DNA of 64,000 bases from Synechococcus sp. CBW1002 (GTDB taxonomy: Bacteria; Cyanobacteriota; Cyanobacteriia; PCC-6307; Cyanobiaceae), in assembly GCF_015840915.1 (NCBI RefSeq), contig NZ_CP060398.1:2728001-2792000 (forward strand). Direction: 5' to 3'. The translations under genes and the position numbers were made by a program. Positions 23,176 to 55,689 of the stretch are shown here, one piece after another; position 1 is the first letter of the stretch; each line of letters begins with the position of its first letter. The notes under the pieces were generated by a model. That model was not told where the DNA came from and searched no databases. It saw only the letters and a list, made by a program, of their open reading frames with translations.

Positions 23176-24210
23176 TTGAAACGAATTTTTTACTTTGGGT
23201 CTTGTAAAATCGAGACCACTTCCGGCCAAAGGGCCTGGGCATTAAGGCGTCTAGGGCACACTGTTACATGCATCGATATTACGCAACTTCTGGGACTAGG
23301 CGCCATTTTTTCATGGTTACACTACAGAACCGGATATCGTTATCTTCAACGGCGTATCCTTTCCTTGCTTCGATCAAGACTCTCAGAAATTATCGACGAA
23401 CCAGATTTGCTCTGGGTTGACGGCGGACAGTATTTTGGACCAAAAATTCTATCTTTGCTTAAGTATTTTTATGGCGTACCAATAGTTCTCTATAATATTG
23501 ATGATCCTACGGGTTCTCGCGACGCATGCCACTATGTTCAGTTTAATAAAGCCATACCGCTATATTCACTTTGTGTTTTTGTGCGCCAAGAGACTGCTCT
23601 AGAGGCTTTGGCCTTAAGAGCCAAGAGAGTTCTTGTTGTCAGCAGATCCTATGATGAGGTCTGTCACCTTCAAAAGGGTTTGACATGTCCCACACACCGG
23701 CATCATCAATCTGCATCGTTCATTGGTACAAACATCAAAGGGGAGAATAGAGACATGTTTCTTCTGAGCCTCATTCAGCAGGGGTGCCCGATCAGGATTT
23801 ACGGAGTCCGATGGGAGAAGAGTCCTTTCTGGACACAGCTTCAATCTTTCCACGCTGGTAATCAGCTCATTGGAGCGAACTATGTGAAGGCCATCAAATC
23901 AGCACAGGCATGTCTGGGACTTCTTTCTCATCAAAACCGCGATTTAATCACAACACGTTCACTTGAAATCCCAGCTTGCGCTGGGGTTTTTTGTGCCGAG
24001 TTGTCGTCTGAGCATCAGTTATTATATGAGAATAACATAGAAGCTCTAATATGGAGCGATAGTGAGTCGTGCGCTCTGAGCGTTCGAGGCTTACTGTTGG
24101 ATGGTCATCGTAGAGCAAGTATTCAGAAGGCTGGAACATCACATGTTCGGGCCATGGGCGTTGGCAATGAAGACATCTGTCGCCACATTCTTTCCGTTGT
24201 AGGGCAATAG
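23176..24210 (+). CDS. Glycosyltransferase-like protein (CgeB / Glyco_trans_1_2 type)
   Basis: A 344-residue protein from TTG 23176 (MKRIFYFGSCKIETTSGQR). It has LLWVDGGQYFGPKILSLLK and VLYNIDDPTGS in the N-terminal half, and in the C-terminal half CLGLLSHQNRDLITTRSLEI with PACAGVFCAELSSEHQLLY, which matches the pattern of CgeB-like/DUF3880-associated glycosyltransferases. The sugar donor is unknown. It lies 9 bp after the polymerase-like gene and 5 bp before the next GT4, so it is in the same operon. Confidence 0.75.
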   Translation: MKRIFYFGSCKIETTSGQRAWALRRLGHTVTCIDITQLLGLGAIFSWLHYRTGYRYLQRRILSLLRSRLSEIIDEPDLLWVDGGQYFGPKILSLLKYFYGVPIVLYNIDDPTGSRDACHYVQFNKAIPLYSLCVFVRQETALEALALRAKRVLVVSRSYDEVCHLQKGLTCPTHRHHQSASFIGTNIKGENRDMFLLSLIQQGCPIRIYGVRWEKSPFWTQLQSFHAGNQLIGANYVKAIKSAQACLGLLSHQNRDLITTRSLEIPACAGVFCAELSSEHQLLYENNIEALIWSDSESCALSVRGLLLDGHRRASIQKAGTSHVRAMGVGNEDICRHILSVVGQ

Positions 24211-29624: not shown

Positions 29625-30315
29625 ATGAGTAATTTTATTAACTCGTCTCATCAGGATTATGTTTTCCTGCAAGTCATGTAGAAGACTGCGGCAACGCGTG
29701 AGGCCTCGACCCGGCGGCTGCAGCGGTTGCTGGCCCCCACCTACCGGTTCCCTGCCAGAAGGCGCTCAATTTGGGAGCCGGTCAGGGTGAGTTGGCTGTG
29801 GCGCTGCAGCGGCTGGGCTGCAGCTCGGCCCGAGCGGTTGAGCTGAGCGCGTCCCAGGTTGAGCAAGCATGGGCCCATGGCTGCAGTGCTGTGGACTTGG
29901 GTGACGGTCTTGCAGCACTACGAGCCCTGTGTTTGATCACCTGCCGCACAAGATCTGCGCTACCTGGTTTGTGCAGAGTCAGCGCGTACTGCGTCCAGGG
30001 GGCCGGTTGATCGGCCATGTGCCCAATGGTCGATCAACTTTCAGCGGTGCAGTGTATTGGGGCGATCTCACTAATCTGTGGTGTCCCGTTCCCGAGAGCA
30101 TGCAGGTTTTCAGCCGCGCGAGCGGCCTTCGTTGGATCGGCGCCTACGAAAACATTGGTGCTTCCATTGGCATGAAAGGCAAGGTGCGCAGCCTGGTCTT
30201 GTGCCGTGTGAGGGCCATCCCTGCTGCAGCGATCACCGTGGAAACTGGGCGTAATGCCTGTAGCGGCCCCTGGAGCCGCACGTTTATGTTTGTAGCTGAG
30301 CAGCAGCAATTTTGA
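29625..30315 (+). pseudogene. SAM methyltransferase, decayed
   Basis: Starts MSNFINSSHQDYVFLQ at 29625 with a TAG at 29679-29681, continues TREASTRRLQRLLAPTYRF, shifts frame near 29755 to ALNLGAGQGELAVALQRLG (SAM motif), shifts again near 29925 and ends as HLPHKICATWFVQSQRVLRP then GGRLIGHVPNGRSTFSG to EQQQF. The layout is that of sugar/glycolipid methyltransferases with a VPNG motif. One stop and two frameshifts make it non-functional. The next glycosyltransferase start overlaps its stop. Confidence 0.75.
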
Positions 30316-31490
30316 GACTCCTCAGGCTGATTCGCTCCCTCAACCCCTCAGGAGGAGGCCCTATGGAGGGCGTCCGCCAGATCACCCCCCACCTGGCGGC
30401 CCTGGGTGTTGCCACCACCGTGGCCAGCCTTGACCCCCCTGATGCCCCCTGGCTGCAGAACCAGCCGTTTGAGGCCATCGGTTTGGGGCCGGTAGCAGGC
30501 GGCTACGGCTACCGCCGCGGCCTGCCTGCCCGCATCCGCGCCTTGGCTGAGCAGCACGATGCCGTGATCATCCACGGCACCTGGCAGTACCACGCTTTTG
30601 CTACCTGGCGCGCCCTGCGCGGCACAGGTGTTCCTTATTTCGTGTACACCCACGGGATGCTCGATCCCTGGTTCAAGCGCACCTACCCGCTCAAGCACCT
30701 CAAGAAGTGGGCCTACTGGCCCTGGGCCGACTACCGGGTGCTGCGCGATGCCCAAGCCGTGCTGTTCACCACCGAGCAGGAGCGGCTGCTGGCCCGCCAG
30801 AGCTTCTGGCTCTACCAGGCCAACGAAGTGGTGGTGGGCTACGGCACTTCAGCGCCGCCCGGCGATGCCGAGCAGCAGCGCGAGCTGTTTCTGAGCCGCT
30901 TCCCCCAGCTGCGCGGCCAGCGCCTCCTGCTGTTCCTCAGTCGCATTCACCCCAAGAAGGGAGTGGATCTGCTGATTGAGGCCTTCGCGGCAATGGCGTC
31001 CACCGATCCCCGCCTGCAACTGGTGATCGCCGGGCCCGATCAGCTGGGCTGGCAGGACGAGCTGCAGCAGCGCGTGGTCAAGCTGGGTATCTCCGATAGC
31101 GTCACCTGGCTCGGCATGCTCAGCGGCGATCTCAAGTGGGGCGCCTTCCGCGCCGCCGAACTGTTTTGCCTGCCCTCCCACCAGGAGAACTTTGGCATCG
31201 TGGTGGCCGAAGCTTTGGCTTGTGGTTTGCCGGTGGCGATTGCTGAGCCGGTGAACATCGCGGCGGAGGTGGTTGCTGCAAGGGCAGGGCTGGTGCATGC
31301 GGATACGTTGGCTGGCACTACGGAGGCGCTCCGTCAATGGTTGGCAATGGGGGACTCAGAGAAGGTGCAGATGAAACAACGGGCTGTTCGGCTGTTTTCT
31401 GAGCGATTTGATTTCTCTACGGCCGCCACGAATCTGGTGTCGGTGCTTCAATTTGCGATTCCAGCACATTCCAGCTTTGTAGCCCATTGA
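30312..31490 (+). CDS. Glycosyltransferase family 4
   Basis: A 392-residue GT-B enzyme from TTG 30312, overlapping the upstream pseudogene stop by 4 bp. N-terminal SLNPSGGGPMEGVRQITPHL with the glycine-rich acceptor loop; HGTWQYHAFATWRAL and YTHGMLDPWFKRTYPLKHLK; donor domain LLFLSRIHPKKGVDLLIEAF near residue 205 and PSHQENFGIVVAEALACGLP with EX7E (ENFGIVVAE). These features match WbaZ/WcaL-like transferases. GC-rich. The following acetyltransferase overlaps its stop by 4 bp, indicating one operon. Confidence 0.9.
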   Translation: MRLLRLIRSLNPSGGGPMEGVRQITPHLAALGVATTVASLDPPDAPWLQNQPFEAIGLGPVAGGYGYRRGLPARIRALAEQHDAVIIHGTWQYHAFATWRALRGTGVPYFVYTHGMLDPWFKRTYPLKHLKKWAYWPWADYRVLRDAQAVLFTTEQERLLARQSFWLYQANEVVVGYGTSAPPGDAEQQRELFLSRFPQLRGQRLLLFLSRIHPKKGVDLLIEAFAAMASTDPRLQLVIAGPDQLGWQDELQQRVVKLGISDSVTWLGMLSGDLKWGAFRAAELFCLPSHQENFGIVVAEALACGLPVAIAEPVNIAAEVVAARAGLVHADTLAGTTEALRQWLAMGDSEKVQMKQRAVRLFSERFDFSTAATNLVSVLQFAIPAHSSFVAH

Positions 31491-32050
31491 TTCTCGCAAA
31501 AGCTCATCCTTTTGAAGGTGCCAGCTTCAGCCGGCGCAACCGCATGGCCAGGCTGATCTGGCAGCTGGTGTGGATGCTGTTGTTCCGTCCCACGCCACCG
31601 CCCTGCCATGCCTGGCGCTGCTGGTTGCTGCGCCGGTTCGGTGCTCGGATCGGTGCCCCTTGCTATGTATATAACGATGTGGAGATCTGGGCTCCCTGGA
31701 ACCTGGTGATGGCGGATTACTCCACGCTCGGGCGCCGGGTAATTGTGTATTCCATGGCTGAGGTCTCCCTGGGTTTGCGGGCTGTGGTGTCGCAGGGTGC
31801 TCATCTGTGCACCGGCAGCCACGATCATGAGTCGGCGAATTTTCAGCTTTTCGCCCGGCCGATTCGCATCGGAGCCGATGCCTGGATCTGCGCGGAGGCT
31901 TTTCTAGGCCCGGGTGTGTCGATCGGTGAGGGTGCGGTGATCGGCGCCCGTTCTGTGGTCACCCGTAATCAACCTACATGGACGGTGTGCGCCGGCAACC
32001 CTTGCCGGCCTCTCAAACCCCGCACCCAGCCCAGCTACGCGCAAGCCTGA
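31487..32050 (+). CDS. WcaF-like O-acetyltransferase (left-handed beta-helix)
   Basis: A 187-residue hexapeptide-repeat acetyltransferase from TTG 31487. N-terminal FEGASFSRRNRMARLIWQLV with a hydrophobic helix (WMLLFRP), then hexapeptide turns (IGAPCYVYNDVEIWAPWNLV, CTGSHDHESANFQL with the catalytic His region, IRIGADAWICAEAFLGPGVS) and the closing CAGNPCRPLK. WcaF-family enzymes transfer acetyl from acetyl-CoA to a sugar of the exopolysaccharide. It starts within the stop of the preceding glycosyltransferase, whose product it may modify. Confidence 0.87.
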   Translation: MILAKAHPFEGASFSRRNRMARLIWQLVWMLLFRPTPPPCHAWRCWLLRRFGARIGAPCYVYNDVEIWAPWNLVMADYSTLGRRVIVYSMAEVSLGLRAVVSQGAHLCTGSHDHESANFQLFARPIRIGADAWICAEAFLGPGVSIGEGAVIGARSVVTRNQPTWTVCAGNPCRPLKPRTQPSYAQA

Positions 32051-33052
32051 ATGCTGCCCGCCCTCACCCTGCCCAATGGGCGCAGCACCTCTGCCCTCGG
32101 CTTTGGCTGCGCCAGCCTCCTGCGCTTGCCCGATTCAGCCGATCGCCAGCGGCTCCTGGCCACCGCTGTGGAATACGGAATCCGCCATTTCGATGTGGCC
32201 CGCCTCTACGGTCTCGGCCTGGCGGAGGCCGAGCTGGCCCCTCTGCTGCGCCATCTTCGGGGCCAGCTCACGCTGGCCACCAAATTCGGCCTCGGCGCTG
32301 CGGCTCCTCCGTCGCCCGCTTCACGGCGCCAGGGTGGCCTCCGGCGCCTGCTCCGCAGCCTTCCTGCGCTCCGCCCGCTCGCCCGGCGCCTCTATGGCAG
32401 CCGCATGGTGCCGCGCAATTTCTCCGCCGCCCAGGCCCGCCGCAGCCTGCACACCAGCCTCAGCCAGCTCGGCCTGGAGTCGGTGGATCTGCTGCTGCTG
32501 CATGAGCCAACGCCCGCCGATGCCATCGATCTCGAGCTGGAAGCCACCCTGCAGGAGCTGCAGCAGCAGGGCCTGATCGGCGCCTTCGGCCTCTCCGGTC
32601 TCTGGCCGGATTGCGGCCCTCTGATTCAGGCCCGCCCTGGCCTGGCGGGCCGCTGGCTGCAGTGGGAAGACGATCTTCTGGAGGCGGCGCCCGCTCTCTC
32701 CTCGTTGCTCTTCGGATTGCCAATCGGCCACGGCCGCTTTGGGCGGATCCGCCGCTCCCTAGAGCCCATCCGCCAGGCCTTCGAGGCTGTGCCCCAGCTG
32801 CAGCACCATTGGAGCGAACGGCTCAACTGCTCCCTCGCCGATGGCACCGTGCTGGCCGCCGCCCTGCTCGGTGCTGCCCTGGCCAGTGATCCCGGCGGGC
32901 TTCAGCTGTATGCCACCACCGACGCCGAGCGCCTGGTCCGCACGCTCACGCTGCTTCACGCCCCCCCCTGGTCGGCGGCTGAGGCAATCGCCTTTGAGGC
33001 GTTCTGGCGGCCACCGGTAACCAGGCCCAGCAGCACAGGCATCGCCCCATGA
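32051..33052 (+). CDS. Aldo/keto reductase family protein, copy 1
   Basis: A 333-residue AKR-fold protein: LGFGCASLLRL near residue 16, AVEYGIRHFDVARLYGLGLA (the catalytic Asp and Tyr are in FDVARLYG), TKFGLG with the Lys, and SLSQLGLESVDLLLLHEPTP with the His. It should reduce or oxidise a carbonyl with NADP(H). Its stop overlaps the ATG of a GMC oxidoreductase by 4 bp (ATGA), and an AT-rich homologue with the same arrangement lies at 40902-41846. The pair probably acts on one substrate, maybe a sugar lactone or nucleotide sugar (inference). GC-rich. Confidence 0.85.
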   Translation: MLPALTLPNGRSTSALGFGCASLLRLPDSADRQRLLATAVEYGIRHFDVARLYGLGLAEAELAPLLRHLRGQLTLATKFGLGAAAPPSPASRRQGGLRRLLRSLPALRPLARRLYGSRMVPRNFSAAQARRSLHTSLSQLGLESVDLLLLHEPTPADAIDLELEATLQELQQQGLIGAFGLSGLWPDCGPLIQARPGLAGRWLQWEDDLLEAAPALSSLLFGLPIGHGRFGRIRRSLEPIRQAFEAVPQLQHHWSERLNCSLADGTVLAAALLGAALASDPGGLQLYATTDAERLVRTLTLLHAPPWSAAEAIAFEAFWRPPVTRPSSTGIAP

Positions 33053-34614
33053 GCCGCATCGATCTGCAGGAGCTGCCCTCGGGGCAGCAGTTTGAGAGCG
33101 ACCTCTGCATCGTGGGCGGCGGCATCGCCGGGCTTGTGCTGGCCGATGCCCTGCGCGGCTGCGGCCGCCGCGTGGATCTTCTGGAGGCGGGCGGCGCCGG
33201 CGAGGAAGCCGAAAGCCAGGCGCTCTATGCCGCCGAGATGGCCGGCGTGCCCCACCTGGGCACCACCGAAGGCCGCTTCCGGGTGTATGGCGGCTCCTCC
33301 ACCCACTGGGGCGGCCAGCTGCTGCCCCTGGCTGCCCATGATTTTCAGCGCCGCCCGCATGTGCCAGAGAGCGGCTGGCCTCTCGATCCCGAGGAGCTCA
33401 GCCCCTATCTCCACCGCTGCGAGGAGCTGCTGGGTGCCAACCACGCCCCCTTTGATGCCTCGCTGATCGATCAGCTGCCCGCTCCCGGGCCCCGGCTCAG
33501 CGATCCCGATCTGCAGCCGCGCTTCTCCAAGTGGGCGCCCTTCGCGCACCGCAATGTGGCCACCACGCTCGGGCCCCGCTGCGAGGCCGATCCGCACACG
33601 CAGGTGTTTCTCCACGCTGGCGTCACCGAGCTCGAACTAGATGACAGCAGTAGCCAAGTGGCGGCTCTCACGGTGCGTACCCTGCGCGGCGGACAGTTCC
33701 GCTTCAGCGCACGGCAGGTGGTGATTGCCGCCGGCACGATCGAAACCACCCGTCTGCTGCTGGCTTCGGGAATCGGCAACCACAGCGATCAGCTGGGCCG
33801 CTGGTTTCACGATCACCTCTCGATCAAGGGCGCCACGCTTCACCCCCAGCCCCGCCGGCCCTTTCTGCAGCGCTTTGCGCCCTGGTTCATCTGCCGCACG
33901 CGCCACACCCTGAAGCTCGAATCCACCGCTGCCTGGCAGGCCCGCCAGGGTTGCCTGAATGTGATGGGTCATCTGGTGTTCGAGGCGCCCGGCACCTCGG
34001 GCTTCGCTTGGCTGCGCCAGCAGCTCCAGGCCCGCCAGCGCAGCGCCACGAGCCCTTGTTCCGTGCCCGCTCCCACCATCGAAAAGCTGCCCGCCGAAAG
34101 CCTCGATCTGCTCTACCTGGCCTGGAAAGCCGCCGTCCGCCGACGCCGCTGGTGCCCGGCTGCAGCTGCGATCACTCTTTACATCGACAGCGAACAGCAG
34201 CCCAACCCGCAGAGCCGCATCCGCCTCTCCCCCCAGCGCGACGCTCTTGGCATGCCGAAGGCCGTGGTCGACTGGCGCTGGGGGGAGCCCGAACGCCACG
34301 CCTTTGCCTGCTACCGCCAGCTGTTTGATCGTCAATGGCAGGCCTGGAACCCCGGCCCGATCCGCTGGCACCACAGCTTCGAGCCCGGCACGGACTGGCA
34401 GGCCCACGTGAGCGACACTTACCACCCGATGGGCGGCACCCGCATGGCCGCCAGCCCCCAGCAGGGCGTGGTGGATCCCCAGCTGCGGGTGCATGGCATC
34501 CACAATTTGTTTGTGACTAGCTGCTCGGTGTTCCCTACCGGCGGCAGCTCCAACCCAACACTCACGCTGATGCAGCTCACCCTGCGTTTGGCGCAGCAGT
34601 TGCGCTTTCTGTAA
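33049..34614 (+). CDS. GMC-type FAD oxidoreductase, copy 1
   Basis: A 521-residue flavoprotein. FAD-binding DLCIVGGGIAGLVLADAL at residues 20-37 with ELEAGG-like LLEAGGAG, the GMC signature region RVYGGSSTHWGGQLLPL near 80, AAGTIETTRLLLASG, and the C-terminal active-site part VSDTYHPMGGTRMA with the conserved His, followed by SCSVFPTGGSSNPTLT. It probably oxidises an alcohol on a sugar. It is translationally coupled to the aldo/keto reductase in front. The homologous pair lies at 40902-43423. No signal peptide is visible. Confidence 0.88.
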   Translation: MSRIDLQELPSGQQFESDLCIVGGGIAGLVLADALRGCGRRVDLLEAGGAGEEAESQALYAAEMAGVPHLGTTEGRFRVYGGSSTHWGGQLLPLAAHDFQRRPHVPESGWPLDPEELSPYLHRCEELLGANHAPFDASLIDQLPAPGPRLSDPDLQPRFSKWAPFAHRNVATTLGPRCEADPHTQVFLHAGVTELELDDSSSQVAALTVRTLRGGQFRFSARQVVIAAGTIETTRLLLASGIGNHSDQLGRWFHDHLSIKGATLHPQPRRPFLQRFAPWFICRTRHTLKLESTAAWQARQGCLNVMGHLVFEAPGTSGFAWLRQQLQARQRSATSPCSVPAPTIEKLPAESLDLLYLAWKAAVRRRRWCPAAAAITLYIDSEQQPNPQSRIRLSPQRDALGMPKAVVDWRWGEPERHAFACYRQLFDRQWQAWNPGPIRWHHSFEPGTDWQAHVSDTYHPMGGTRMAASPQQGVVDPQLRVHGIHNLFVTSCSVFPTGGSSNPTLTLMQLTLRLAQQLRFL

Positions 34615-34632
34615 CCAACACTCTTCTTCCTT

Positions 34633-35340
34633 ATGTATTCAAATCCTGCGCTGATTCGGCTGCGTAATGCCCTGCGACGTGCTGGTGTGCTGCATGCCAT
34701 CCAGAACAGCCCCTTCTATCGGCTGATCAATAAGGGCTATGAATCTCGCTTTGATGAGGCGATGATGAATAGCCTTGAGCCTGGAATGCGCGTCTTTGAT
34801 GTAGGTGCCAATGTCGGCTACTATACCGAAAAGTTCGCAGATTGCGTCGGGCCCTCCGGCAGTGTGCATGCCTTTGAGCCTGTGCCAGCCTCCGCCAGCA
34901 TGATCAAAGGGATGGTGGCTGCAAGGCCCTGGATTGAAGTGCATCAATGCGCTGTTGCTGATCAGCCCGGTGAGCTCGTGATGGATGCAGAATGTGGTTC
35001 CACATCTCCTACAAACAAGGTTGCTATCAGCACACTGGGGGGCGCAGGGACAGGGATGACTGTCCCTGTGGAGACAATTGACTTGATCGCAGAAAAAGTT
35101 GGGGTTCCGGCTGCGATCAAAATTGACGTAGAAGGGTATGAGTGGCATGTGCTTGAAGGAAGTCGTAAGACTCTTTCATCGTCCGACCTTCATCATGTCT
35201 TCGTTGAAGTTCATTTTGCGCTCCTGGAACAGCGTGGTCTGATTAACGCCGCTGCTGATATTGCAAGCGTCCTTGCCGGCGCCGGCTTTGAGGTTGAATA
35301 CACAGACTTCAGTCACATTCATGCCTTTCGGCGTTCATGA
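34633..35340 (+). CDS. FkbM-family methyltransferase
   Basis: A 235-residue class I methyltransferase: SAM-binding VFDVGANVGYYTEKFAD near residue 54, HAFEPVPAS with the acidic ribose-binding residue, VPVETIDLI and the FkbM hallmark IKIDVEGYEWHVLEGS near 160, ending in VEVHFALLEQRG. FkbM enzymes O-methylate hydroxyls of glycans or polyketides. Composition is intermediate. Its stop overlaps the next gene's ATG by 4 bp. One of four intact FkbM genes in the window. Confidence 0.9.
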   Translation: MYSNPALIRLRNALRRAGVLHAIQNSPFYRLINKGYESRFDEAMMNSLEPGMRVFDVGANVGYYTEKFADCVGPSGSVHAFEPVPASASMIKGMVAARPWIEVHQCAVADQPGELVMDAECGSTSPTNKVAISTLGGAGTGMTVPVETIDLIAEKVGVPAAIKIDVEGYEWHVLEGSRKTLSSSDLHHVFVEVHFALLEQRGLINAAADIASVLAGAGFEVEYTDFSHIHAFRRS

Positions 35341-36224
35341 GTAACTGCTCGATCTTGATTCTGACCAAAAACGAAGCGCTTGATCTTCCTGGTTGCTTGA
35401 AATCGGTACAATGGAGTAATGATATTGTCGTCTATGACTCGTTCAGCACGGATCACACGAGTTTGATTGCTGCCAAGGCTGGAGCAAGAGTGATTCAAAG
35501 GCCAGGGCAAGAGCCTGGAATCGCTTTTGGTGGCGACGAGGCCTGTCATCGCACCTGGGGTATTCGCGAAATCCAATACAAAAATCCCTGGATTTTTGTC
35601 ATCGACGCCGATGAGCGTCTCACCCTCGAAGCCGCCGCCGAGCTCCAGGCCATCGCCAGCGATCCGAGCCCCACATGCGTCGCCTACCGCATCCGCCGCC
35701 GCGACTTCTTCCAGGGCCGTCAGCTGAAGCATGTGCAGACTTCGCCCTGGTACATCCGCTTCTTCCGACCTGAGTTCGTGCATTACGAACGCCTGGTGAA
35801 TCCGATCACGGTGGTGGATGGCCCGGTCGGCGATCTGCAGCACCCGCTCGACCACTACCCCTTCTCCAAAGGCCTCAGCCACTGGATCGCTCGCCACAAC
35901 AGCTACAGCAGTTTTGAGGCCCAGCAGATCCTCCAGAACCGCGCCAGCCAGGAACCCTTCAGCCTCCGCGCCGCATTCCTCGAGCGCGACTTCAACCGCC
36001 GCCGCTTCCACCAGAAGGAACTCTTCTACCGCCTCCCCGCCCGGCCGCTGATCAAGTTTGTCCTCCTCTACGTGCTCAAGCGCGGCTTCCTCGACGGCCG
36101 CCCCGGCTTCACCTACGCCCTACTGCAGAGCATCTACGAAGCTTTCATCGTGCTCAAGGTGCAGGAATTTGAGTCCTGCCGCCTGCATGAGACCACAGAT
36201 AAATTGGGGCGGTTGCTCCTGTGA
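35337..36224 (+). CDS. Glycosyltransferase family 2 (WaaE/KdtX-like)
   Basis: A 295-residue GT-A enzyme. MSNCSILILTKNEALDLPGC at the start, VVYDSFSTDHTSLIAAKAG, the metal-binding DXD as VIDADERLT near residue 95, and WYIRFFRPEFVHYE with LQHPLDHYPFSKGLSHWIAR, a pattern of LPS core beta-1,4-glucosyltransferases such as WaaE. The 5' half is AT-richer than the 3' half, with a change near 35590, which hints at a recombination join inside the gene. Translationally coupled to the FkbM gene before it. Confidence 0.88.
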   Translation: MSNCSILILTKNEALDLPGCLKSVQWSNDIVVYDSFSTDHTSLIAAKAGARVIQRPGQEPGIAFGGDEACHRTWGIREIQYKNPWIFVIDADERLTLEAAAELQAIASDPSPTCVAYRIRRRDFFQGRQLKHVQTSPWYIRFFRPEFVHYERLVNPITVVDGPVGDLQHPLDHYPFSKGLSHWIARHNSYSSFEAQQILQNRASQEPFSLRAAFLERDFNRRRFHQKELFYRLPARPLIKFVLLYVLKRGFLDGRPGFTYALLQSIYEAFIVLKVQEFESCRLHETTDKLGRLLL

Positions 36225-36803
36225 AGCCGCCAGCTTTGATCAATTTTCGCGAGGTGCTGCTTACTCCCGCCTTGCTGGTAGACAGCACCCTTAACAGCTA
36301 TGCCGCTGTTAACCGCAGTCGCCAAGGTGAGGTAGCAAGCGGGTTCGTGTCGCGCGATGAGCACAACGGCGACTCAAAGCAATCCAATTGCCTCTCCCTT
36401 CCTCGCTTTCATACTGCCCGAAATCGCGCGCACAATGCACCTTACAAATGACCCGTCGTTGAATGGGTTTGGGGGGGGTGGGACAATGAGATGAAATGAC
36501 CATTCTTGCCGCTGTCCATGATCAGGACGACCGAGTTGATTCTGAGTGCTGCCGCTTTTTGTGTTTTGGTGCCAACCGGCGGAGTTATTCCGCGATATTC
36601 TTAGCCTGGTTACATCTCTGCACTAATTGGGGCTTCTTGAAGAAGGCCTGTCCATGTCTACCGAAACTGATCTGAAAATCTTTAGAGATGAAATGCGTGC
36701 AAATGTGTTGATTTGAGCCCAGTCTATCCTGCCTTGCATACGAACATGGTAGACGCGTTGCTTTTCGCGGGAATCCCCTTTATCCCATGCAATACATGGC
36801 ATC
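36225..36803 (+). other. Gap without a recognisable gene
   Basis: 579 bp separating the GC-rich from the AT-rich part of the cluster. A 76-codon frame (36221-36451) has no protein-like features. A small hairpin AACAGC-TATGCC-GCTGTT lies around 36292-36309. The AT-rich stretch before 36804 may carry the promoter of the next block. Confidence 0.4.
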
Positions 36804-37886
36804 ATGGCTGATTACAGGCATATATTATACGTTCATTTTGAGATTCCACTCGGAGGTGCCGTTATCGCAACCGCAACCCTAAGGAGTCTTAAGGAATCCA
36901 ACCCGAGCCTAAAGGTTTCTGTAGTGGCCAGCGGCCATTCACTTGATCTCATGGCAGCTTCCCCCTATGTTCACAAGTTACATGCAGCACCGAATCCAAT
37001 CAAATCACCCTTATTGGCATTTCTATATGCCGCGACAAAGATATTTCCAGAGAGAAAAGAATACGACGCTATTGTGCTTGATTATGGGAACCGTCGAAGC
37101 TTGATTACAGTTTTTGCAATCCTTACTGGTATAAAAGAGCGAATAGGATACAGTGTAAGACCTTGCCTTTTGCATTCTAGAGCCCACCATAACAGTAATG
37201 ATTCAAATATCGCGAGGAATAACAAAGCTTTAGCGAAATTAACGCGTAATCCGTTAAAAGAAACTGAGCCCTCGATACATTTTTGTCATAACGATATAGA
37301 TATATATGATAGCTTTTTCAGTCGTTATTCTGAAGCAAGGCCACGAGTTGTATTTGTAACTGAAACGAGCAAAGGGCATCCAAACGCATGGTATGCCGAT
37401 AGATTTGTTATGGTAGGCAAATTACTTATTAGTCAGTATGACGCCCTTGTCATCCTTATAGGGACGGCTGCGAACAAGGAGGATATAAATAATATTAGAC
37501 AGGGGATTGGGCATGACTCAGTTTCTCTTGCTGGCCAAACCTCACCAAGACAATTAGCAGCGTTAATGGCCTGTTGCGATTTTTGTATTTCAGCAGACAC
37601 TGGCGCCATGCATGTTGCCAGAGCTGTTACTCTTCCAACAGTTATTCTTGGAAATGCCGCACAACCCGTAGGCCTATGGCTTCCACCCGCTGGCCTTGAT
37701 TATATAGAACTTATTCGAAAAGATCACTTGCCTTGCACGATATGCTGGAAGTTAAAATGTGAAACCAAAGAATGCATGGATGAAATTAGCGTCGAGGATG
37801 TAGAATCAGCCTTCTTACGGCTTAAGTCCAGAGTCTCATGGGGCAAGGAAGCCAGAAAGCAGCGAGTGCTCGATTTTTCCTCATGA
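36804..37886 (+). CDS. Glycosyltransferase family 9 (heptosyltransferase-like)
   Basis: A 360-residue GT9 protein: ILYVHFEIPLGGAVIATATL near residue 7 (replacing the usual R-x-G-D-x-V region of heptosyltransferases), VVFVTETSKGHPNAWYADRF, and the donor-site motif CISADTGAMHVARAVTLPTV near 264. GT9 enzymes transfer heptose or related sugars to the LPS core. AT-rich, first gene of the second AT-rich block. Four cysteines near the C-terminus (CTICWKLKC, KECM) are typical for this GT9 subgroup. Confidence 0.85.
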   Translation: MADYRHILYVHFEIPLGGAVIATATLRSLKESNPSLKVSVVASGHSLDLMAASPYVHKLHAAPNPIKSPLLAFLYAATKIFPERKEYDAIVLDYGNRRSLITVFAILTGIKERIGYSVRPCLLHSRAHHNSNDSNIARNNKALAKLTRNPLKETEPSIHFCHNDIDIYDSFFSRYSEARPRVVFVTETSKGHPNAWYADRFVMVGKLLISQYDALVILIGTAANKEDINNIRQGIGHDSVSLAGQTSPRQLAALMACCDFCISADTGAMHVARAVTLPTVILGNAAQPVGLWLPPAGLDYIELIRKDHLPCTICWKLKCETKECMDEISVEDVESAFLRLKSRVSWGKEARKQRVLDFSS

Positions 37887-38245
37887 CTCAAACTTACATG
37901 ATGCTTTCGTTGTAAAGGAATTTTTTAAAAACATACTTCTTTACAACAGTTGCATTGATATTTGATGATGTTCAGGGCCTGTCTCGGGCTCGTCACGTGA
38001 ATCGAACCACAAGTTGGCGGTCGAAATAAAATAAACAATGACGTTGGATATGTTGTTCTAGCTACAATTCTGGGGACAGCACTCATCCTCTTCCTGCAAA
38101 TATATGTATGATTCATTAACTTCTTCGCATCTATCGTAGCAGGTTGTCATGAGAGGATGCCATTATGTACTCCACCTCTCTGAAAAAACATTATGATTAA
38201 GGAAATTATCGAGGCATTTTATCCGCGGTCACGATTTAGAATTTT
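37887..38245 (+). other. Gap without a recognisable gene
   Basis: 359 bp, AT-rich. TTGTAAAG and CTTTACAA form an 8-bp inverted pair about 20 nt apart just after the GT9 stop, a possible weak terminator (with T- and A-rich loop). No coding signal was seen; the part near 38200-38240 may hold the promoter of the FkbM genes. Confidence 0.4.
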
Positions 38246-39199
38246 ATGAATTATACTTTACCTTTTCTTGATCAGGCGAAATCTATGCCCAAGTACTTTT
38301 TTTTGCTTCGGGCTTTTGGGCACTTTAAAATTCCATTTCTCTCGGATTACAGCAAGCAACGTATTTTGCATCTGTTTGCCAATAAAAACAATCCACATCC
38401 TGCTAGGTGGAAACAGTTCTATTATGAGGTCAAAAATAATGGAGTGCTGTATTCAGGCTTTCTAGGAAACTATATTGATTGGTTCGCATTCTTCTTTGGT
38501 GCCGATGAGAAGAATTTGTTGGAAAACATTTATAAGCCCATTCTTGCTACCTCTGCTGATCCAATATATATTGATGTAGGTGGCAATATAGGCCATCATG
38601 CATTATACCTAAGCCGGCATGCTTCGCTTATTCATTCGTTTGAACCAGTATCTACGTGTCTAGCTGAATTCAGACGTAAGGTATCTCGCGCTGATGTTTC
38701 CAACATTGTTCTTCATGACTACGCAATAGGCGAGAGTGATTACGATGCTGAAATCAATTGTTCAGTCGGATTCAATGGGGGTACAAATTCATTTAGCAAG
38801 GAACATGATTCGGCTAATACGCGGGTTGAGTTGGTACGTGTCAAAGCATTTGATAACCTAGATTTACCAGAACTTGCGCGGTCGGTCTTAGTTAAGATTG
38901 ATGTTGAGGGCTTCGAGTATGCTGCTCTTTCGGGAATGATACAATTCCTTGTAAAAACAAGGCCGTTTGTCATGTGTGAACTAAGCGCGCAATCGCTCAA
39001 GATGTTTCAATTAAATAATTCTTCCCTTAAAACAATGCTCCCCCACGACTATATCTTTCTTGACGCTGACAAACTATCTTTGAGGCCTAGGATTAATTGG
39101 CGTCTCAACTATCTTAGATCCTTTCAGATTTGTCATGACTTTCGAGGTAACGTCCTTTGTGCCCCGCTAGAACGCTTGAATAGCCTTAGAAAGTTTTAA
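38246..39199 (+). CDS. FkbM-family methyltransferase
   Basis: A 317-residue protein, longer than usual because of an N-terminal extension of about 100 residues without clear motifs. SAM motif YIDVGGNIGHHALYLSRH near residue 110, HSFEPVST, the FkbM segment VLVKIDVEGFEYAALSGM near 214 and FVMCELSAQS. AT-rich and adjacent to another FkbM gene 30 bp downstream; the two may methylate different hydroxyls of the same glycan. Confidence 0.88.
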   Translation: MNYTLPFLDQAKSMPKYFFLLRAFGHFKIPFLSDYSKQRILHLFANKNNPHPARWKQFYYEVKNNGVLYSGFLGNYIDWFAFFFGADEKNLLENIYKPILATSADPIYIDVGGNIGHHALYLSRHASLIHSFEPVSTCLAEFRRKVSRADVSNIVLHDYAIGESDYDAEINCSVGFNGGTNSFSKEHDSANTRVELVRVKAFDNLDLPELARSVLVKIDVEGFEYAALSGMIQFLVKTRPFVMCELSAQSLKMFQLNNSSLKTMLPHDYIFLDADKLSLRPRINWRLNYLRSFQICHDFRGNVLCAPLERLNSLRKF

Positions 39200-39229
39200 G
39201 CTAAATTATGGCGCTGCATTGTTGAAGCA

Positions 39230-39952
39230 ATGAACTTATTTAAACAGCTTTGGACTATTGGTCATCAATTATCACCATCTCTATTCCTTTCTCTTGACTT
39301 TATACGTAAGAATAAGAACTTCGAACGAGACTTATGGATCGTTCAAAGTTTCTGCAATAAAACCACGATCTCGATCGATGTAGGTGTCAATCAGGGGATC
39401 TATTCATGTTTCATGGCTAGATATTCAAAAGAGGTTGTTTGTTTCGAATGTAATCCTCTATTGTATACTCGACTTGAATCGATCTTGCCAAAAAATGCCA
39501 GTCTCCACAAAATAGCGTTGTCCGACTGTAGCGGGTTTGCAGAACTAAGATTTGATCCATCTAATACCGGCATTGGAACAATTGAAAAAAACAACTTACT
39601 TGTAGGCAATTCTGGGATAAAAAAAGTTGTCACTCAAAATGTTCCTATTAAGCGCTTAGACGATTATTCATTAACTGACGTAAGCTTCATAAAAATAGAT
39701 ATTGAAGGCCACGAACTTCAATGCCTTAAAGGTGCTGAAACTCTCTTAAACTCCTTTCATCCTGCGCTTTTAATTGAAATCGAAGAAAGACATTGTCCTG
39801 GAAACCTAGTGGCTGTGCCAGACTTCTTAAGAACTTTTGATTATCACCCATTTATCTTATCAAAAAATGGTCTTTATTTACAGCCGGTTCTGGAATTAAA
39901 TCGCCATGCTCAACGCGGTGTTAACAACTTTTGGTTTCTTCCATTAATTTAG
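39230..39952 (+). CDS. FkbM-family methyltransferase
   Basis: A 240-residue class I methyltransferase: TISIDVGVNQGIYSCFMARY near residue 46 (SAM motif), VCFECNPLL, the FkbM hallmark SFIKIDIEGHELQCLKGAE near 153 and ALLIEIEERH. AT-rich, intact. Start ATG 39230 gives MNLFKQLW. It is the last gene before a 950-bp stretch of decayed insertion sequences. Confidence 0.9.
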   Translation: MNLFKQLWTIGHQLSPSLFLSLDFIRKNKNFERDLWIVQSFCNKTTISIDVGVNQGIYSCFMARYSKEVVCFECNPLLYTRLESILPKNASLHKIALSDCSGFAELRFDPSNTGIGTIEKNNLLVGNSGIKKVVTQNVPIKRLDDYSLTDVSFIKIDIEGHELQCLKGAETLLNSFHPALLIEIEERHCPGNLVAVPDFLRTFDYHPFILSKNGLYLQPVLELNRHAQRGVNNFWFLPLI

Positions 39953-40199
39953 GAATCATTATGAGAAGAATGTAAAAATTATCTTTGATCCAAAGCTGAG
40001 TTTGGAACGGATAGTTGTCTTCCTCCAGCTGGGCTTCCCGTACGACGAGCAGATTTTCGCAATGCTGAGGAGGCATCGCCAGGGCATTTCGCCAACTGAC
40101 AGGAAGGACGACATTCCTACTGCTGTTCCAGCAGCCATCGTCAACGTAGCTGTTGTGCAATCAATGTCTGTTGAAGGTGGGTAGCTCAAACCACTTCTT
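39953..40199 (+). pseudogene. IS5-family element remnant (5' end)
   Basis: TCCAAAGCTGAG at about 39990 followed by a frame containing FLQLGFPYDEQIFAM parallels the intact IS5 element at 44770-44840 (TTCCAAAGCTGAGACTGG and PLQLGFTDYEQTYAK). Homology fades within about 100 bp, so only the left end is left. Confidence 0.5.
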
Positions 40200-40690
40200 G
40201 CCAACTCAAACAGCGTATCGCTCGTGACCAGCGCCGTGGATTGAGCTGGAGAGCCTGATTCGAACACATAGCGCGATGCCTACTTATCTCCACGGCTTGT
40301 CTCTCGTGACTTTGCTGAGGCGTCACGTACCTGATGCCACTGTGGTGGTGCAGGTGGTTGTATCGAATCCGCTAATGACGCGAAACACTGATAGGCCCCG
40401 AGCTGGCTTGTGAACGGTTGACTGGGTTAGGCGAGGCGGTACTCTGCAGTGAGCAATAGCGACTCGGAGTAGAGGATGTTGTAGCTGATGCGCTGCGGTG
40501 AGAACATCCTGCGCACTCACAGTTCCTACAGCCGGCTCTCCAGCGTTACGGCACGCAAAGCATTGCCGTTGACGGCGTGTGGGATCAAAGGTTGGCGGCT
40601 CCTCTTGCTTATCCACTTATTCAAGAAAGACCTGCTCACTAGATCGACTGCAATGGCTGGTTCTTTTCGTTCGACGACATCTCAATCCAC
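40200..40690 (-). pseudogene. IS3-family transposase (orfB) remnant
   Basis: Nucleotide similarity to the minus-strand IS3 copy at 47060-47520 is seen in the same order: GCGTCACG near 40320, CTCGGAGTAG near 40463, CTCCAGCG then CATTGCCGTTGACGGCGTG near 40560. Many stops and indels show an old, dead copy. It has low-GC drift compared with the intact copies. Confidence 0.6.
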
Positions 40691-40901
40691 CACCTTTCGG
40701 TTCCAGAAATTGATTGCTAGCATAGTAACTTAGCGATGCACCCTCTGTATTATGGCTTTAGCACATTTATTAGGCATGTATTGTTCAATGCGCAATCGTG
40801 CTATAGGCCTGCTCTGCGTAGATATATATGTTGAATTCTATTTTCTTTAATGGCGAATCTTAGCAGACCGATTTAGCAACAATGGTATCCAGAGGTTTAC
40901 A

Positions 40902-41846
40902 ATGAAAAGAATAGTTCTTTCGGGAACTGATATTGAGACATCATCATTAGGGTTTGGCTGTAGTGCTTTGATGGGCAGTGGCTCAAGAGCTTATCGGCAG
41001 AGACTTCTTAGCCAAGCATTGGAACTAGGAGTAACCCACTTTGATGTGGCTCGATACTACGGCCTTGGCGAAGCGGAATCAGAACTCGGACGCTTCCTTA
41101 AGGCTAATCCTGGGAAAGCGACGGTTGCAACAAAGTTTGGAATTAATCCATTACCATTCGCTACAGCCGGTTTTTCTCGCCTCTTCAGTAGGCTAGGCGC
41201 ACAATCGTTCGGAAAGCAAATCGAAAGGACTGCGGGTGAACGAACACATCGCTTCAAACTTGCGGAAGCCCGAGCGGCGCTCGAAACTAGCCTTCGCAAA
41301 TTGAAAGTTGATACAATTGACGTTTATTTATTGCACGATTGCCGATCCAAGGATGTCCGCAATCCCGACCTGCTTAATTTCTTGATGAAATCAAAAGCTG
41401 ATGGGAAAATTCGCTCATTTGGTGTGGCATCTGAAATTGAATCTATCCTTGAGATCGATCAAACAATACCAGCTTATACCAATGTAATACAGCTTGAAAA
41501 TAGTCTCCTTAGGCCCAATCTAAAACGTATTCCGAGTTTGCCTAATCGAGCTGTGATAACGCACCGAGCGCTCTCCCATAATCTAGTAAAGTTGCTTGAG
41601 CTTATTACTCAGCACTCCAAACAAGCTGAAGCATGGAGTGACGAATTAGGTGTTGACCTGAAAGACCCTTTAGTACTCGCCAATGCAATGCTGGCCTATG
41701 CTGCCGCCGAAAATCCCAATGGGATTACTCTGTTTTCTACAACAAAGATTCGTAGAATTAAATCCAATGTCTGTGCCATTCAGCATCCGATACTACCCCC
41801 TCAAAAGCTTCAACGTCTCATGGAATTATTGGTAGCCTTTAAATGA
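40902..41846 (+). CDS. Aldo/keto reductase family protein, copy 2
   Basis: A 314-residue homologue of the protein at 32051-33052, with the same motifs: SLGFGCSALMGSGSRAYRQR, LGVTHFDVARYYGLGEAESE (catalytic Asp/Tyr), ATKFGI and SLRKLKVDTIDVYLLHDC. AT-rich codon use against GC-rich use in copy 1, so the two were not produced by a recent local duplication. Its TGA overlaps the following GMC gene's ATG by 4 bp, exactly as in copy 1. Substrate unknown; probably an NADP-dependent step on a sugar of the glycan. Confidence 0.87.
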   Translation: MKRIVLSGTDIETSSLGFGCSALMGSGSRAYRQRLLSQALELGVTHFDVARYYGLGEAESELGRFLKANPGKATVATKFGINPLPFATAGFSRLFSRLGAQSFGKQIERTAGERTHRFKLAEARAALETSLRKLKVDTIDVYLLHDCRSKDVRNPDLLNFLMKSKADGKIRSFGVASEIESILEIDQTIPAYTNVIQLENSLLRPNLKRIPSLPNRAVITHRALSHNLVKLLELITQHSKQAEAWSDELGVDLKDPLVLANAMLAYAAAENPNGITLFSTTKIRRIKSNVCAIQHPILPPQKLQRLMELLVAFK

Positions 41847-43423
41847 TTAATAGATTAGGTGAAACCTCTATCCAACGAGAATTTGAGGCGGATATCGCGA
41901 TCATCGGAGCCGGTGCGATGGGCCTTGCGATTGCTTCAGAGTTTTTGCATACAGGATTCTCAATTCTTCTTCTTGAGTCGGGTCTTGCTGATTCTAACTG
42001 TGTAAGTGACACATTACTCGCTGTCGAGAATATTGGCCACAAATTTAACGGCGCCACGAGTTCGGGACGCCGACGTGTTCTTGGTGGTGCTACAACACTT
42101 TGGGGTGGGCAGTTCTTACCGTTAGGGGATATTGTATTTACAGAGCGACCATGGCTTGGTGTTTCCGGTTGGCCTTTCCAGAAAACATTACTTAAACCAT
42201 TTTATAAACGAGCTGCTGATTTAGCACAGCTAAAGCTAGCCACTGGTGGTGATTCACTTTGGATAGGTCATGGCATAAATCCGCCGCTTTTTAATCCTGA
42301 AAAACTAAAGTCAGAATTTTCAAGTTGGAGTCCAAGACCTAATTTCGCGAATAACATGCGCGGCGATCTTGCTTTAAGCTCTAACGTGGAGGTTCTTTTG
42401 GATGCTACTGTAACTGAAATTTTAATCAATAGGCATGGAGAGGTTCAGGAGCTTTCTATAAGATCTACTCTTGGTCATGCTGCTATGGCCAAGGCACGCT
42501 TTTATATATTGGCTGCAGGTGCAATTGAATCAGCACGCCTCCTTCTGGCCTCAAGAAGGCAGGATGATCGTGGTATCGGTAATTCCAATGGACTAGTCGG
42601 GCGATACTTTCAAGACCATATTAGCCTGCCCGTAGCTCGAATCATCCCCAAAAATCGAGCGACTTTTCATCAGATTTATGATAACTTTATTGTGGGAGGA
42701 ACTAAATATGCTCCCAAAGTGGTCATCTCGGATGCCCTCCAGCGAGAAAATCGCATTTTAAATGTTGGCGGCTTTTTCCGTTTTTCAGTCGATAATTCCA
42801 TAAGTATAAATGCGCTCAAAACACTGATCGGTCATTTGAAGAGAAGAACAATACCCAGTGACGGCATTCCCCTTCTTGCTAAATCCATTATCAATCTGCC
42901 AGAAGTAGCGAAATTTGCTTATGGTGTACGTATCAAACATCGCATACAAGCTAGTAGAGAAGGAGAGATCTTCTTGGAGGCACATTCAGAGCAACTCCCA
43001 CGTCCTGAAAGTCGTATAAGCCTTTCAAAGAAAGACGATCGGCTCGGAATGCCTCTAGCATGTCTTAACTGGCGTATTGCAGATGAATCTCGCATGGCAA
43101 TAAAGGCTTACACGAATACTGTGCGCGATGAGTTTCATAGGCTTTGCCTTGCTGACGTAGAGCCACTTAGCGATGTCATTGACTCACCTTACGAGTTTCA
43201 ACGAAGTTTGAGCGATGTGTACCACCAAATGGGTACATTGCGGATGAGTACGAACCCCGAGGAAGGTGTTACTAACCCTGATGCCCGAATGCACGAGGTG
43301 CCCAATCTCTATGTAGCCGGGTGCTCTTTATTCCCGGTATCCGGTTATTCTAATCCTACGCATACTGGGATCGCTTTGGCGGTGCGATTGGCCGATCACC
43401 TAAAATCACGCCTATCAAAATAG
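41843..43423 (+). CDS. GMC-type FAD oxidoreductase, copy 2
   Basis: A 526-residue homologue of the protein at 33049-34614. FAD-binding DIAIIGAGAMGLAIASEFL near residue 14 and LLESG, RRVLGGATTLWGGQFLPLGD near 73, LAAGAIESARLLLASR, and the C-terminal SDVYHQMGTLRMSTNPEEGV with the active-site His, then CSLFPVSGYSNPTHT. Intact and AT-rich. Coupled to the aldo/keto reductase before it. It ends the second AT-rich block; an IS630 element follows 163 bp later. Confidence 0.88.
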   Translation: MINRLGETSIQREFEADIAIIGAGAMGLAIASEFLHTGFSILLLESGLADSNCVSDTLLAVENIGHKFNGATSSGRRRVLGGATTLWGGQFLPLGDIVFTERPWLGVSGWPFQKTLLKPFYKRAADLAQLKLATGGDSLWIGHGINPPLFNPEKLKSEFSSWSPRPNFANNMRGDLALSSNVEVLLDATVTEILINRHGEVQELSIRSTLGHAAMAKARFYILAAGAIESARLLLASRRQDDRGIGNSNGLVGRYFQDHISLPVARIIPKNRATFHQIYDNFIVGGTKYAPKVVISDALQRENRILNVGGFFRFSVDNSISINALKTLIGHLKRRTIPSDGIPLLAKSIINLPEVAKFAYGVRIKHRIQASREGEIFLEAHSEQLPRPESRISLSKKDDRLGMPLACLNWRIADESRMAIKAYTNTVRDEFHRLCLADVEPLSDVIDSPYEFQRSLSDVYHQMGTLRMSTNPEEGVTNPDARMHEVPNLYVAGCSLFPVSGYSNPTHTGIALAVRLADHLKSRLSK

Positions 43424-43585: not shown

Positions 43586-44677
43586 CTAGTGTGCCGTCCC
43601 GGAGATCTGCGAGCAAAGTCGCTGGAGCTTCTCCAGGATTGAATCCGCTGTGGCCGTCCAGTTGAACGGCGCCTTGGTCTTGTTGTAGGCCGCCACGAAT
43701 TGCTCGATCTTGGAGATCAACTCCTTGACGCTGGAGAAGCTGCCGCGTCGGATCGCCCGCTGGGTGATGATCCCAAACCAACGCTCCACCTGGTTGATCC
43801 AGGAGGCGTAGGTCGGTGTGTAGTGCACGTGGAAGCGGGGCCGCTGCGCCAGCCAGGCCCTCACCTTGGCGTGCTTGTGGGTGCAGTAGTTGTCGACGAT
43901 CAAGTGGACATCAAGCTCCTCGGGGACCGACTTCTCGATCTGGCGCAGGAACCCCAGGAACTCCTGATGCCTATGGCGGGGCTTGCATTGGGTGATCACC
44001 TCGCCTGTTGCCACATCCAGAGCAGCGAACAGCGTGGTGGTGCCGTGGCGGATGTAGTCGTGGGTGACGCCCTCCACGTAACCCAGGCCCATGGGCAACA
44101 GCGGCTGGGTGCGGTCCAGTGCCTGGATCTGCGTCTTCTCGTCGACGCAGAGCACCATCGCCTTATCCGGAGGGTTCAGGTACAGGCCGACGATGTCGCG
44201 GACCTTCTCCACAAAGAACGGGTCGGTGGAGAGCTTGAACGACTTCTGCCGGTGGGGCTGGACCGAGAAAGTCTGCAGCCAGCGGTGAACGGTGGTTTTG
44301 GAGATGCCGGTGGCAGCCGCGAGGGAGCGCGCAGACCACTGGGTGCTGCCATCGGTGGGCTTGGTCTGCAGTGCCCGGTTGATCACCTCCGCCACCGTGT
44401 CGTCCTCGTAGGTGCGAGGCCTACCCGGCCGCAGCTCGTCATGCAGGCCCTCCAGGCCCAGCTCCCGGTACCGCTTGCGCCACTTGCCAACGGTCATCCC
44501 CGTCAGCCCCATCCGTTTGGCGATGGCGGTGTTGGTCTCGCCGGCACCGCAGGCCAGCACGATCTGAGCGCGCTGCACGATCGAATGCGGCAACGACCGG
44601 GAATTTGCAAGGGCCCGCAACTGCTGAACCTCGTCCTCGCTGAGGACCAGCGGAGGCATCGGACGACCAAGCGCCAC
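43586..44677 (-). CDS. IS630-family transposase
   Basis: A 363-residue DDE transposase. N-terminal helix-turn-helix domains ([20 protein letters not shown] and [19 protein letters not shown]), then the DDE_3 domain with [16 protein letters not shown] (Asp), [18 protein letters not shown] (second Asp) and [20 protein letters not shown] (Glu). All catalytic residues are present in one uninterrupted frame, so it looks active. The stop codon TAG overlaps the TA target duplication at the left border. Confidence 0.93.
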
Positions 44678-46062: not shown

Positions 46063-46815
46063 ATGTTTGGGAAAAAATCTCTTCAAGCGTATCTGCGTTC
46101 AAATGGGGTTGAGATTCGGAAAGTCCCCGCACAGCAGAAGTCTCATCTTCCAGTGTTTCGCGTGCTGGTTAACCTATTAATGCGGTGTCGTGAGCACCCA
46201 CTTACTTTTGTCCAGGTTGGTGCTAACGACGGTATTCATGGTGATCCACTTCACGCTTACATCCTTCGTCATGAATGGCGTGGAATTCTGATTGAGCCCC
46301 AGCCGGATGTGTTCGCTCGGCTTGTCCATAATTATGCTGCCTGCAGTGATCGTTTGATTTTTGAAAACTCGGCTATCTCTCCGTCAGGCAGTTATATCAA
46401 TATCTACAGAGTGCCCTTTGTTCAGCCGTCAGATCATCAGGATATTCCTTTTTCGCTAACAGTCACGTCCTTCAGCCCTTCCGTGGTGTCCAGGCAAACA
46501 GGTGTTCCTGAGCAGTCACTTCAGCAGGTGCGGGTGCCTGCGCTCACGCTTGACGCGCTCCTGCAAAAGCATGGGTTTGATGATCTAGATCTGCTACAGA
46601 TTGATTGTGAAGGCTATGACTCGCAAGTTTTAGAGTCGATAGACTTTAAGCGTTACCGGCCTCGTTTAATTCAGTTTGAGCATGGTCATTTATCCCGCCA
46701 TGAGCTCTCGAGATTGGAGGGTAGATTTGCTCGGGATAACTACCAGATGCATTATGGTGGCTATTCATCTGATAGTCTGGCCATCTCTGGGGAATGGTTA
46801 GACTCGCTCGCCTGA
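46063..46815 (+). CDS. FkbM-family methyltransferase
   Basis: A 250-residue protein: TFVQVGANDGIHGDPLHAYI near residue 48 (SAM motif), GILIEPQPDVF, VPALTLDALLQKHG and the FkbM-type LDLLQIDCEGYDSQVLES near 183. Intact, with moderate GC. It is isolated between the IS5 and IS3 elements, with an AT-rich leader (46010-46060) that probably contains its own promoter. Confidence 0.88.
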   Translation: MFGKKSLQAYLRSNGVEIRKVPAQQKSHLPVFRVLVNLLMRCREHPLTFVQVGANDGIHGDPLHAYILRHEWRGILIEPQPDVFARLVHNYAACSDRLIFENSAISPSGSYINIYRVPFVQPSDHQDIPFSLTVTSFSPSVVSRQTGVPEQSLQQVRVPALTLDALLQKHGFDDLDLLQIDCEGYDSQVLESIDFKRYRPRLIQFEHGHLSRHELSRLEGRFARDNYQMHYGGYSSDSLAISGEWLDSLA

Positions 46816-49726: not shown

Positions 49727-49738
49727 AATTAGAACTCG

Positions 49739-50872: not shown

Positions 50873-50879
50873 CGACGAG

Positions 50880-53341: not shown

Positions 53342-53352
53342 CAGTTTTGTTT

Positions 53353-55603: not shown

Positions 55604-55689
55604 CACAGGCGGTCTCTGCCTGAGATGCAACCGGGAATCAAGCTGCAGTCAAGAGTTCAGCAGAGCTGAAGTTCGCGGTGAGCTTTCCC

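Follow-up and report, generated by a model that had tools for sequence, protein, structure and literature searches.

The window analysed here, a 64,000 nt stretch of the genome of Synechococcus sp. CBW1002, contains two gene pairs, each coding for an aldo/keto reductase (AKR) and a GMC oxidoreductase. This raises the questions of where two such pairs in one locus came from, whether the two enzymes work together, and on what.

Two copies of an AKR-GMC gene pair

Both pairs are on the plus strand. Copy 1 consists of an AKR gene (positions 32051..33052, 333 aa; PF00248, E 9.7e-21), with the catalytic tetrad Asp48/Tyr53/Lys78/His151 in its product, and a GMC oxidoreductase gene (33049..34614, 521 aa; PF05199, E 7.8e-26), with catalytic His459/Asn502. 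Copy 2 likewise contains an AKR gene (40902..41846, 314 aa; PF00248, E 7.7e-27; tetrad Asp48/Tyr53/Lys78/His145) and a GMC gene (41843..43423, 526 aa; PF05199, E 2e-21; His461/Asn504). The Pfam matches to Aldo_ket_red, for the AKRs, and to PF05199/PF00732, for the GMCs, exceed the curated cut-offs in both copies, and together with the ORF coordinates they agree with a first-pass annotation of the window, which had placed two AKR-GMC pairs at 32051-34614 and 40902-43423. As it had also indicated, the last 4 bp of the AKR gene, ATGA, are in each pair also the first 4 bp of the GMC gene (33049-33052 in copy 1 and 41843-41846 in copy 2). The two AKRs are 34% identical over 299 aa (E 9e-36) and the two GMCs 33% identical over 524 aa (E 3e-84). 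A third copy of the pair is absent from the rest of the host genome (one contig of 3.85 Mb), whose remaining GMC genes match far more weakly.

Origin of the two copies

Copy 1 had been described as GC-rich and copy 2 as AT-rich, and the values bear this out: the GC content of the AKR and GMC genes is 0.70 and 0.68 in copy 1 (GC3, 0.81 and 0.82) vs. 0.45 for both genes in copy 2 (GC3, 0.37). With the outer flanks of the window at 66% GC, the composition of copy 1 is that of the host, whereas that of copy 2 is not. Synechococcus sp. CS-1325 carries a syntenic orthologue of copy 1, 80% identical for the GMC and 68% for the AKR, where the gene order is GT4-WcaF-AKR-GMC-FkbM-GT2, as around copy 1; for copy 2, the genome scans gave no relative with more than 36% identity. 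The GMC tree places copy 1 with Acidobacteriota and Nitrospirota (support 100/98) and copy 2, with weaker support, near the type found in Cyanobium. Since the GMCs belong to different clades, copies 1 and 2 are, as judged from this tree, old and separate lineages. A local duplication is ruled out, both by these different clades and by the nearest relative of copy 1 being from another cyanobacterium. The earlier proposal that the copies came from different sources, and not by local duplication, is thus carried better by the trees, where the clade of copy 1 is well supported, than by GC content.

Genetic context of the two copies

Copy 1 is embedded in a run of plus-strand genes. Upstream there is a GT4 glycosyltransferase gene (30312..31490; PF00534, E 7e-30), which occupies the same place in Synechococcus sp. 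CS-1325 and has relatives in the Bacteroidota loci L128 and L129 (281 and 250 bits); directly before the AKR gene, there is a gene for a WcaF-like hexapeptide acyltransferase (31487..32050; NF007797, E 2.4e-56, slightly below the cut-off). The GMC gene is directly followed by an FkbM methyltransferase gene (34633..35340; PF05050, E 1.2e-20), whose product is 68% identical to its counterpart from L033, the locus of strain CS-1325; the Nitrospira counterparts are ca. 40% identical to that of L033. A GT2 glycosyltransferase gene (35337..36224; PF00535), scoring about 190-270 bits against the GT2s of Nitrospira and Bacteroidota loci, closes the conserved run. A CgeB-like glycosyltransferase gene (23176..24210, plus strand; PF13524) is situated elsewhere in the cluster. 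A lower-GC stretch at 28386-29477, after AsnB and before the run of copy 1, contains three to four successive ORFs, each of 113-120 aa.

Upstream of copy 2 there are, on the plus strand, a GT9 gene (36804-37886) and two FkbM methyltransferase genes (38246-39199 and 39230-39952), and then a decayed repeat remnant (40306..40587, no strand assigned), 68% identical to a repeat that has 281-bp matches at eight other places in the genome. A transposase-like gene, named from its sequence only, lies directly downstream on the minus strand (43586-44677), with a second one on the plus strand (44793-45776; DUF772/DDE_Tnp_1). Past them there is a further FkbM methyltransferase gene (46063..46815, plus strand; PF05050, E 5e-20), 54% identical to the FkbM that stands divergently beside the pair of L026. 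The repeat remnant upstream and the transposase-like genes downstream suggest that copy 2 arrived together with mobile DNA. The first-pass annotation had FkbM and glycosyltransferase genes adjoining each pair; this stands for copy 1, and the FkbM and GT9 genes around copy 2 are separated from it by decayed or mobile DNA.

Farther downstream, the region 48713-53880 contains genes of the ADP-heptose type, that is, HldE-like (50814-52358), HldD-like (52355-53341) and GmhB-like (53347-53880), as well as a GT9 gene and one for an AGE-family epimerase (49739-50872); the annotated ORFs did not include a GmhA. An ORF resembling, by its sequence, an IS66-type transposase (54065-55630, minus strand) points to a further mobile element bordering the cluster on the right, and a fragment at 56722-56988, which matches a segment of an FkbM-like gene of strain CS-1325 (L033:15033-15983) with 64% identity, is probably a gene remnant.

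Distribution of the AKR family and its coupling to GMC genes

Profile searches with the AKR family covered about 1,500 genomes, some of which were in two samples. Strong matches occurred in 2 of 291 cyanobacterial genomes, each time beside a GMC gene, and the family was found in 4/251 genomes of the window's own family, 8/148 of the Nitrospirota (four of them strong), 12/247 of the Acidobacteriota, 6/297 of the Bacteroidota and 4/299 of the phylum of an Arenicella genome. The AKR family is patchy and rare, at about 1-5% of the sampled genomes per phylum, and it is discrete, with E values <1e-90 in genomes containing the pair and of 3e-29 or weaker elsewhere. The pair itself is present in Cyanobacteria, Nitrospirota, Acidobacteriota, Bacteroidota and Proteobacteria.

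Most members of the AKR family adjoin a GMC gene. Conversely, a scan of 84,980 species genomes identified 37 GMC relatives, with an AKR gene adjoining 22 of them. The order is AKR-GMC in Cyanobacteria, Nitrospirota and the loci L014, L015 and L024, and GMC-AKR in Bacteroidota and one type from Acidobacteria; another Acidobacteria type has the two genes convergent or on opposite strands, and in L134 there is one gene between them. Because adjacency survives these changes of gene order, the AKR and the GMC are probably functionally coupled. Additionally, GMC and AKR distances were correlated among 28 pairs (Mantel r 0.85, 0/10000 permutations), although this correlation is carried mostly by close relatives and drops to r 0.32 in diverged pairs. 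The presence in several phyla, the adjacency despite scrambled order and the correlated distances uphold the earlier claim of a conserved coupled pair. Close GMC relatives without an AKR exist in G058 and in the genomes of L028 and L045, and in the genome of L047 the AKR and GMC genes are far apart. The AKR relatives of L112, L130 and L131, left out as a different, lower-scoring subfamily, adjoin alkaline-phosphatase-superfamily-like proteins (in tandem in L130) and are perhaps another coupled AKR type, without a GMC.

Glycan genes in the vicinity of the pairs

The surroundings of copy 1 are partly matched in Nitrospira, with the order WcaF-AKR-GMC-FkbM-GT2-GT4 and an O-antigen-ligase-like gene. 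In Bacteroidota, L128 shows GT4-WcaF-GMC-AKR-GT2, its GT2 reaching 268 bits against that of the window; L129 resembles it and has a GT9. Other arrangements are GT2-GMC-AKR-GT4-Wzx in L110 (on one strand, reading reversed) and GT4-AKR-GMC-SDR in L113-L115, from Nitrospirota, whereas in six Acidobacteria a gene for a CgeB-like glycosyltransferase, related to the one at 23176..24210 of the window, shares a 4-bp overlap with the GMC gene. No third partner is common to all pair types, with FkbM, WcaF, GT4 and GT2 recurring in several of them and a CgeB-like glycosyltransferase in another.

A glycan gene was found at 600 bp or less from 27 of 42 pairs vs. 4 of 23 GMC relatives without an AKR; among random intervals taken from these loci, 16% contained a glycan marker. 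These counts are support and not statistical proof, because paired loci had supplied part of the seeds for the marker profiles, slightly different score limits (45 vs. 60 bits) applied to the two counts, and the loci are not independent by descent. This neighbourhood check, which the first-pass annotation had proposed, speaks for its placement of the pair in carbohydrate clusters. It had also taken rarity elsewhere, or a location mainly outside such clusters, as evidence against its reading, and this applies in part, because the pair is rare in every sampled phylum and, in the Cyanobium type and one of the Acidobacteria types, is placed outside glycan clusters. In eight Cyanobium/Synechococcus loci and in several from Acidobacteria, the pair is not surrounded by a glycan cluster: the Cyanobium-type pair is near ClpB-like, enolase and ABC1-kinase genes, and the convergent Acidobacteria pairs are among housekeeping genes, e.g., for phosphofructokinase or CTP synthase. 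An FkbM gene or its remnants nevertheless flank the pair in three of those eight loci. Divergently upstream of the Cyanobium-type pair, FkbM is broken in L019 (7883-8596) and L021 (259-845) and intact in L026 (8048-8818); the methyltransferase seems to be on its way out of this type, with the pair being kept.

Features of the predicted enzymes

Alignments indicated that neither the AKR nor the GMC has lost catalytic residues in either copy. In copy 2 numbering, the AKR tetrad D48, Y53, K78 and H145 is invariant in 19 sequences, and GMC residues H461 and N504 in 21; in the N-terminal FAD-binding GxGxxG motif of the GMC, G22 and G24 are invariant and G27 nearly so. AlphaFold models of copy 1 were of high confidence, with a pLDDT of 90.9 for the GMC and of 86.8 for the AKR, the latter with the (beta/alpha)8 AKR fold. 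The best Foldseek matches of the AKR model were AKRs (TMt 0.66-0.79 among the top ten), and its fold matches include 7bc1, an AKR with NADPH and glucose bound, and 7utf, an AKR of the deoxynivalenol pathway; the best solved match of the AKR profile was AKR11C1 (1ynp), a general AKR type. By profile and fold, the GMC is nearest to FAD fructose/glucose dehydrogenase and then to glycoside 3-oxidase/pyranose oxidase. No signal peptide was apparent by eye at the N terminus of either enzyme, and both are therefore probably cytosolic. Other identities for the GMC were discarded, with a score of 60.5 bits vs. an NCBIfam cut-off of 387 for the mycofactocin GMC (MftG), and scores far under the cut-offs for choline dehydrogenase and cholesterol oxidase.

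Possible function of the pair

Where a sugar-type FAD enzyme and a carbonyl reductase are tied together within glycan clusters, the simplest reading is an epimerising system. We tentatively propose, as a reading nearly as likely to be right as wrong, that the AKR and the GMC form a two-enzyme redox modifier, an epimerase, of a surface-glycan sugar, similar to DprE1/DprE2 and built from other families. The GMC, as a cytosolic FAD enzyme, would oxidise a glycosyl substrate to a keto-sugar by removing a hydride from one of its ring carbons; the AKR, encoded on the same transcript, would use NAD(P)H to reduce the ketone from the opposite face and so invert the carbon; and the products of the adjoining FkbM, WcaF-like and glycosyltransferase genes might O-methylate, acylate and/or link the resulting sugar. 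Within this scheme we infer the sugar substrate, the order of the steps, the inversion, the cofactor, the electron acceptor and the cytosolic location. The first-pass annotation had already suggested epimerisation via a keto-sugar; coupling, glycan neighbours and catalytic residues are in its favour, and epimerisation itself is the best guess that they allow.

The same genomic evidence would also fit glycan tailoring without epimerisation, where a keto- or aldehydo-sugar made by the GMC undergoes dehydration, deoxygenation, amination or branching and the AKR reduces a later carbonyl, yielding, e.g., a deoxy or branched sugar. Some AKRs do reduce late sugar intermediates of antibiotic pathways, and the genes adjoining the pair in L113-L115 include SDR/GDP-mannose-dehydratase-like ones. 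However, no dehydratase or aminotransferase is common to the different pair loci, whose constant members are the two redox enzymes only, and we consider this alternative unlikely, if worth keeping in mind. Rather improbable is also a general redox or detoxification pair, oxidising alcohols and reducing reactive carbonyls, that sometimes shares an island with glycan genes. The Cyanobium-type and convergent Acidobacteria surroundings and the AKR11C1 match would agree with such a role, but island co-residence hardly accounts for runs of WcaF, FkbM, GT2 and GT4 conserved in three phyla, nor for the 4-bp glycosyltransferase overlap in a fourth one, given how few random intervals contain markers. 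That copy 1 alone serves the glycan, with the AT-rich copy 2 being a passenger of the surrounding mobile DNA and heading for decay, is very improbable, because both copy 2 genes are full length and keep all catalytic residues and the ATGA overlap.

Extending the epimerase reading beyond this locus is more doubtful: a widespread cytosolic GMC+AKR redox-epimerase might convert nucleotide- or lipid-linked sugars to rare epimers for the surface glycans of Cyanobacteria, Nitrospira, Acidobacteria and Bacteroidota, the DprE1/DprE2 logic having been invented independently. The proposed mechanism as such is known from other systems; the protein families that would carry it out are new to it. If true, this would be a further route to epimers beside one-step NAD-dependent epimerases and DprE1/DprE2, a marker in several phyla for glycan clusters with unusual sugars, and an enzyme pair usable for producing rare sugar epimers. 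Two very diverged copies within one cell are also material for comparing specificity.

Comparison with known systems

No description of the AKR-GMC pair was found in a search of the open-access literature (PMC full text) on GMC, AKR and glycans. The earlier statement that no pathway is described thus holds for this pair of families, but not for the logic, of which DprE1/DprE2 and DepA/DepB are examples.

The best matches of the GMC are the catalytic subunits of FAD fructose and glucose dehydrogenases (7w2j and 6a2u; E 5e-54 and 3e-57), which, by their PDB titles, belong to multi-subunit enzymes, membrane-bound in the case of fructose. Their catalytic His/Asn region aligns with that of the GMC, at about 20% overall identity. 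The catalytic subunit of these dehydrogenases carries iron-sulfur cysteines, and the genes for the partner subunits are close by; the GMC has no cysteine cluster in residues 131-188, with one cysteine there in copy 1 and none in copy 2, and no partner subunit was found among the annotated neighbours of the GMC genes. The bacterial glycoside 3-oxidase PsG3Ox (7qf8) and pyranose oxidases, 17-19% identical, have the GMC fold and a His/Asn pair as well. They act on sugars, using O2 to oxidise C3 or C2 of a pyranose. In PsG3Ox the pair (H440/N484) is essential, the alanine mutants being inactive, and the enzyme serves C-glycoside catabolism with deglycosidases (PMC10646112). PsG3Ox is not known to have an AKR partner. 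The closest solved relatives of the GMC function without a partner reductase, which speaks against the epimerase reading.

A two-step epimerisation with an AKR is known from DepA/DepB, where a dehydrogenase forms 3-keto deoxynivalenol and the AKR DepB reduces it to the 3-epimer (PMC6056672, PMC9427786). The AKR model matches a related structure, 7utf, but DepA/DepB carry out a catabolic detoxification of a terpenoid, without a glycan cluster. DepA, the first enzyme of that epimerisation, is not known to be a GMC protein. In mycobacteria, the FAD enzyme DprE1 oxidises decaprenylphosphoryl-ribose to a 2-keto-sugar, from which the NAD(P)H reductase DprE2 yields the 2'-epimer; both act as a complex, and the epimer goes into the cell wall (PMC10307805). 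Their substrate is known and lipid-linked. DprE1 is a flavoprotein of the vanillyl-alcohol-oxidase type and DprE2 a short-chain dehydrogenase, families other than GMC and AKR, and the pair described here therefore may share with them only the logic of oxidising a sugar and reducing it again.
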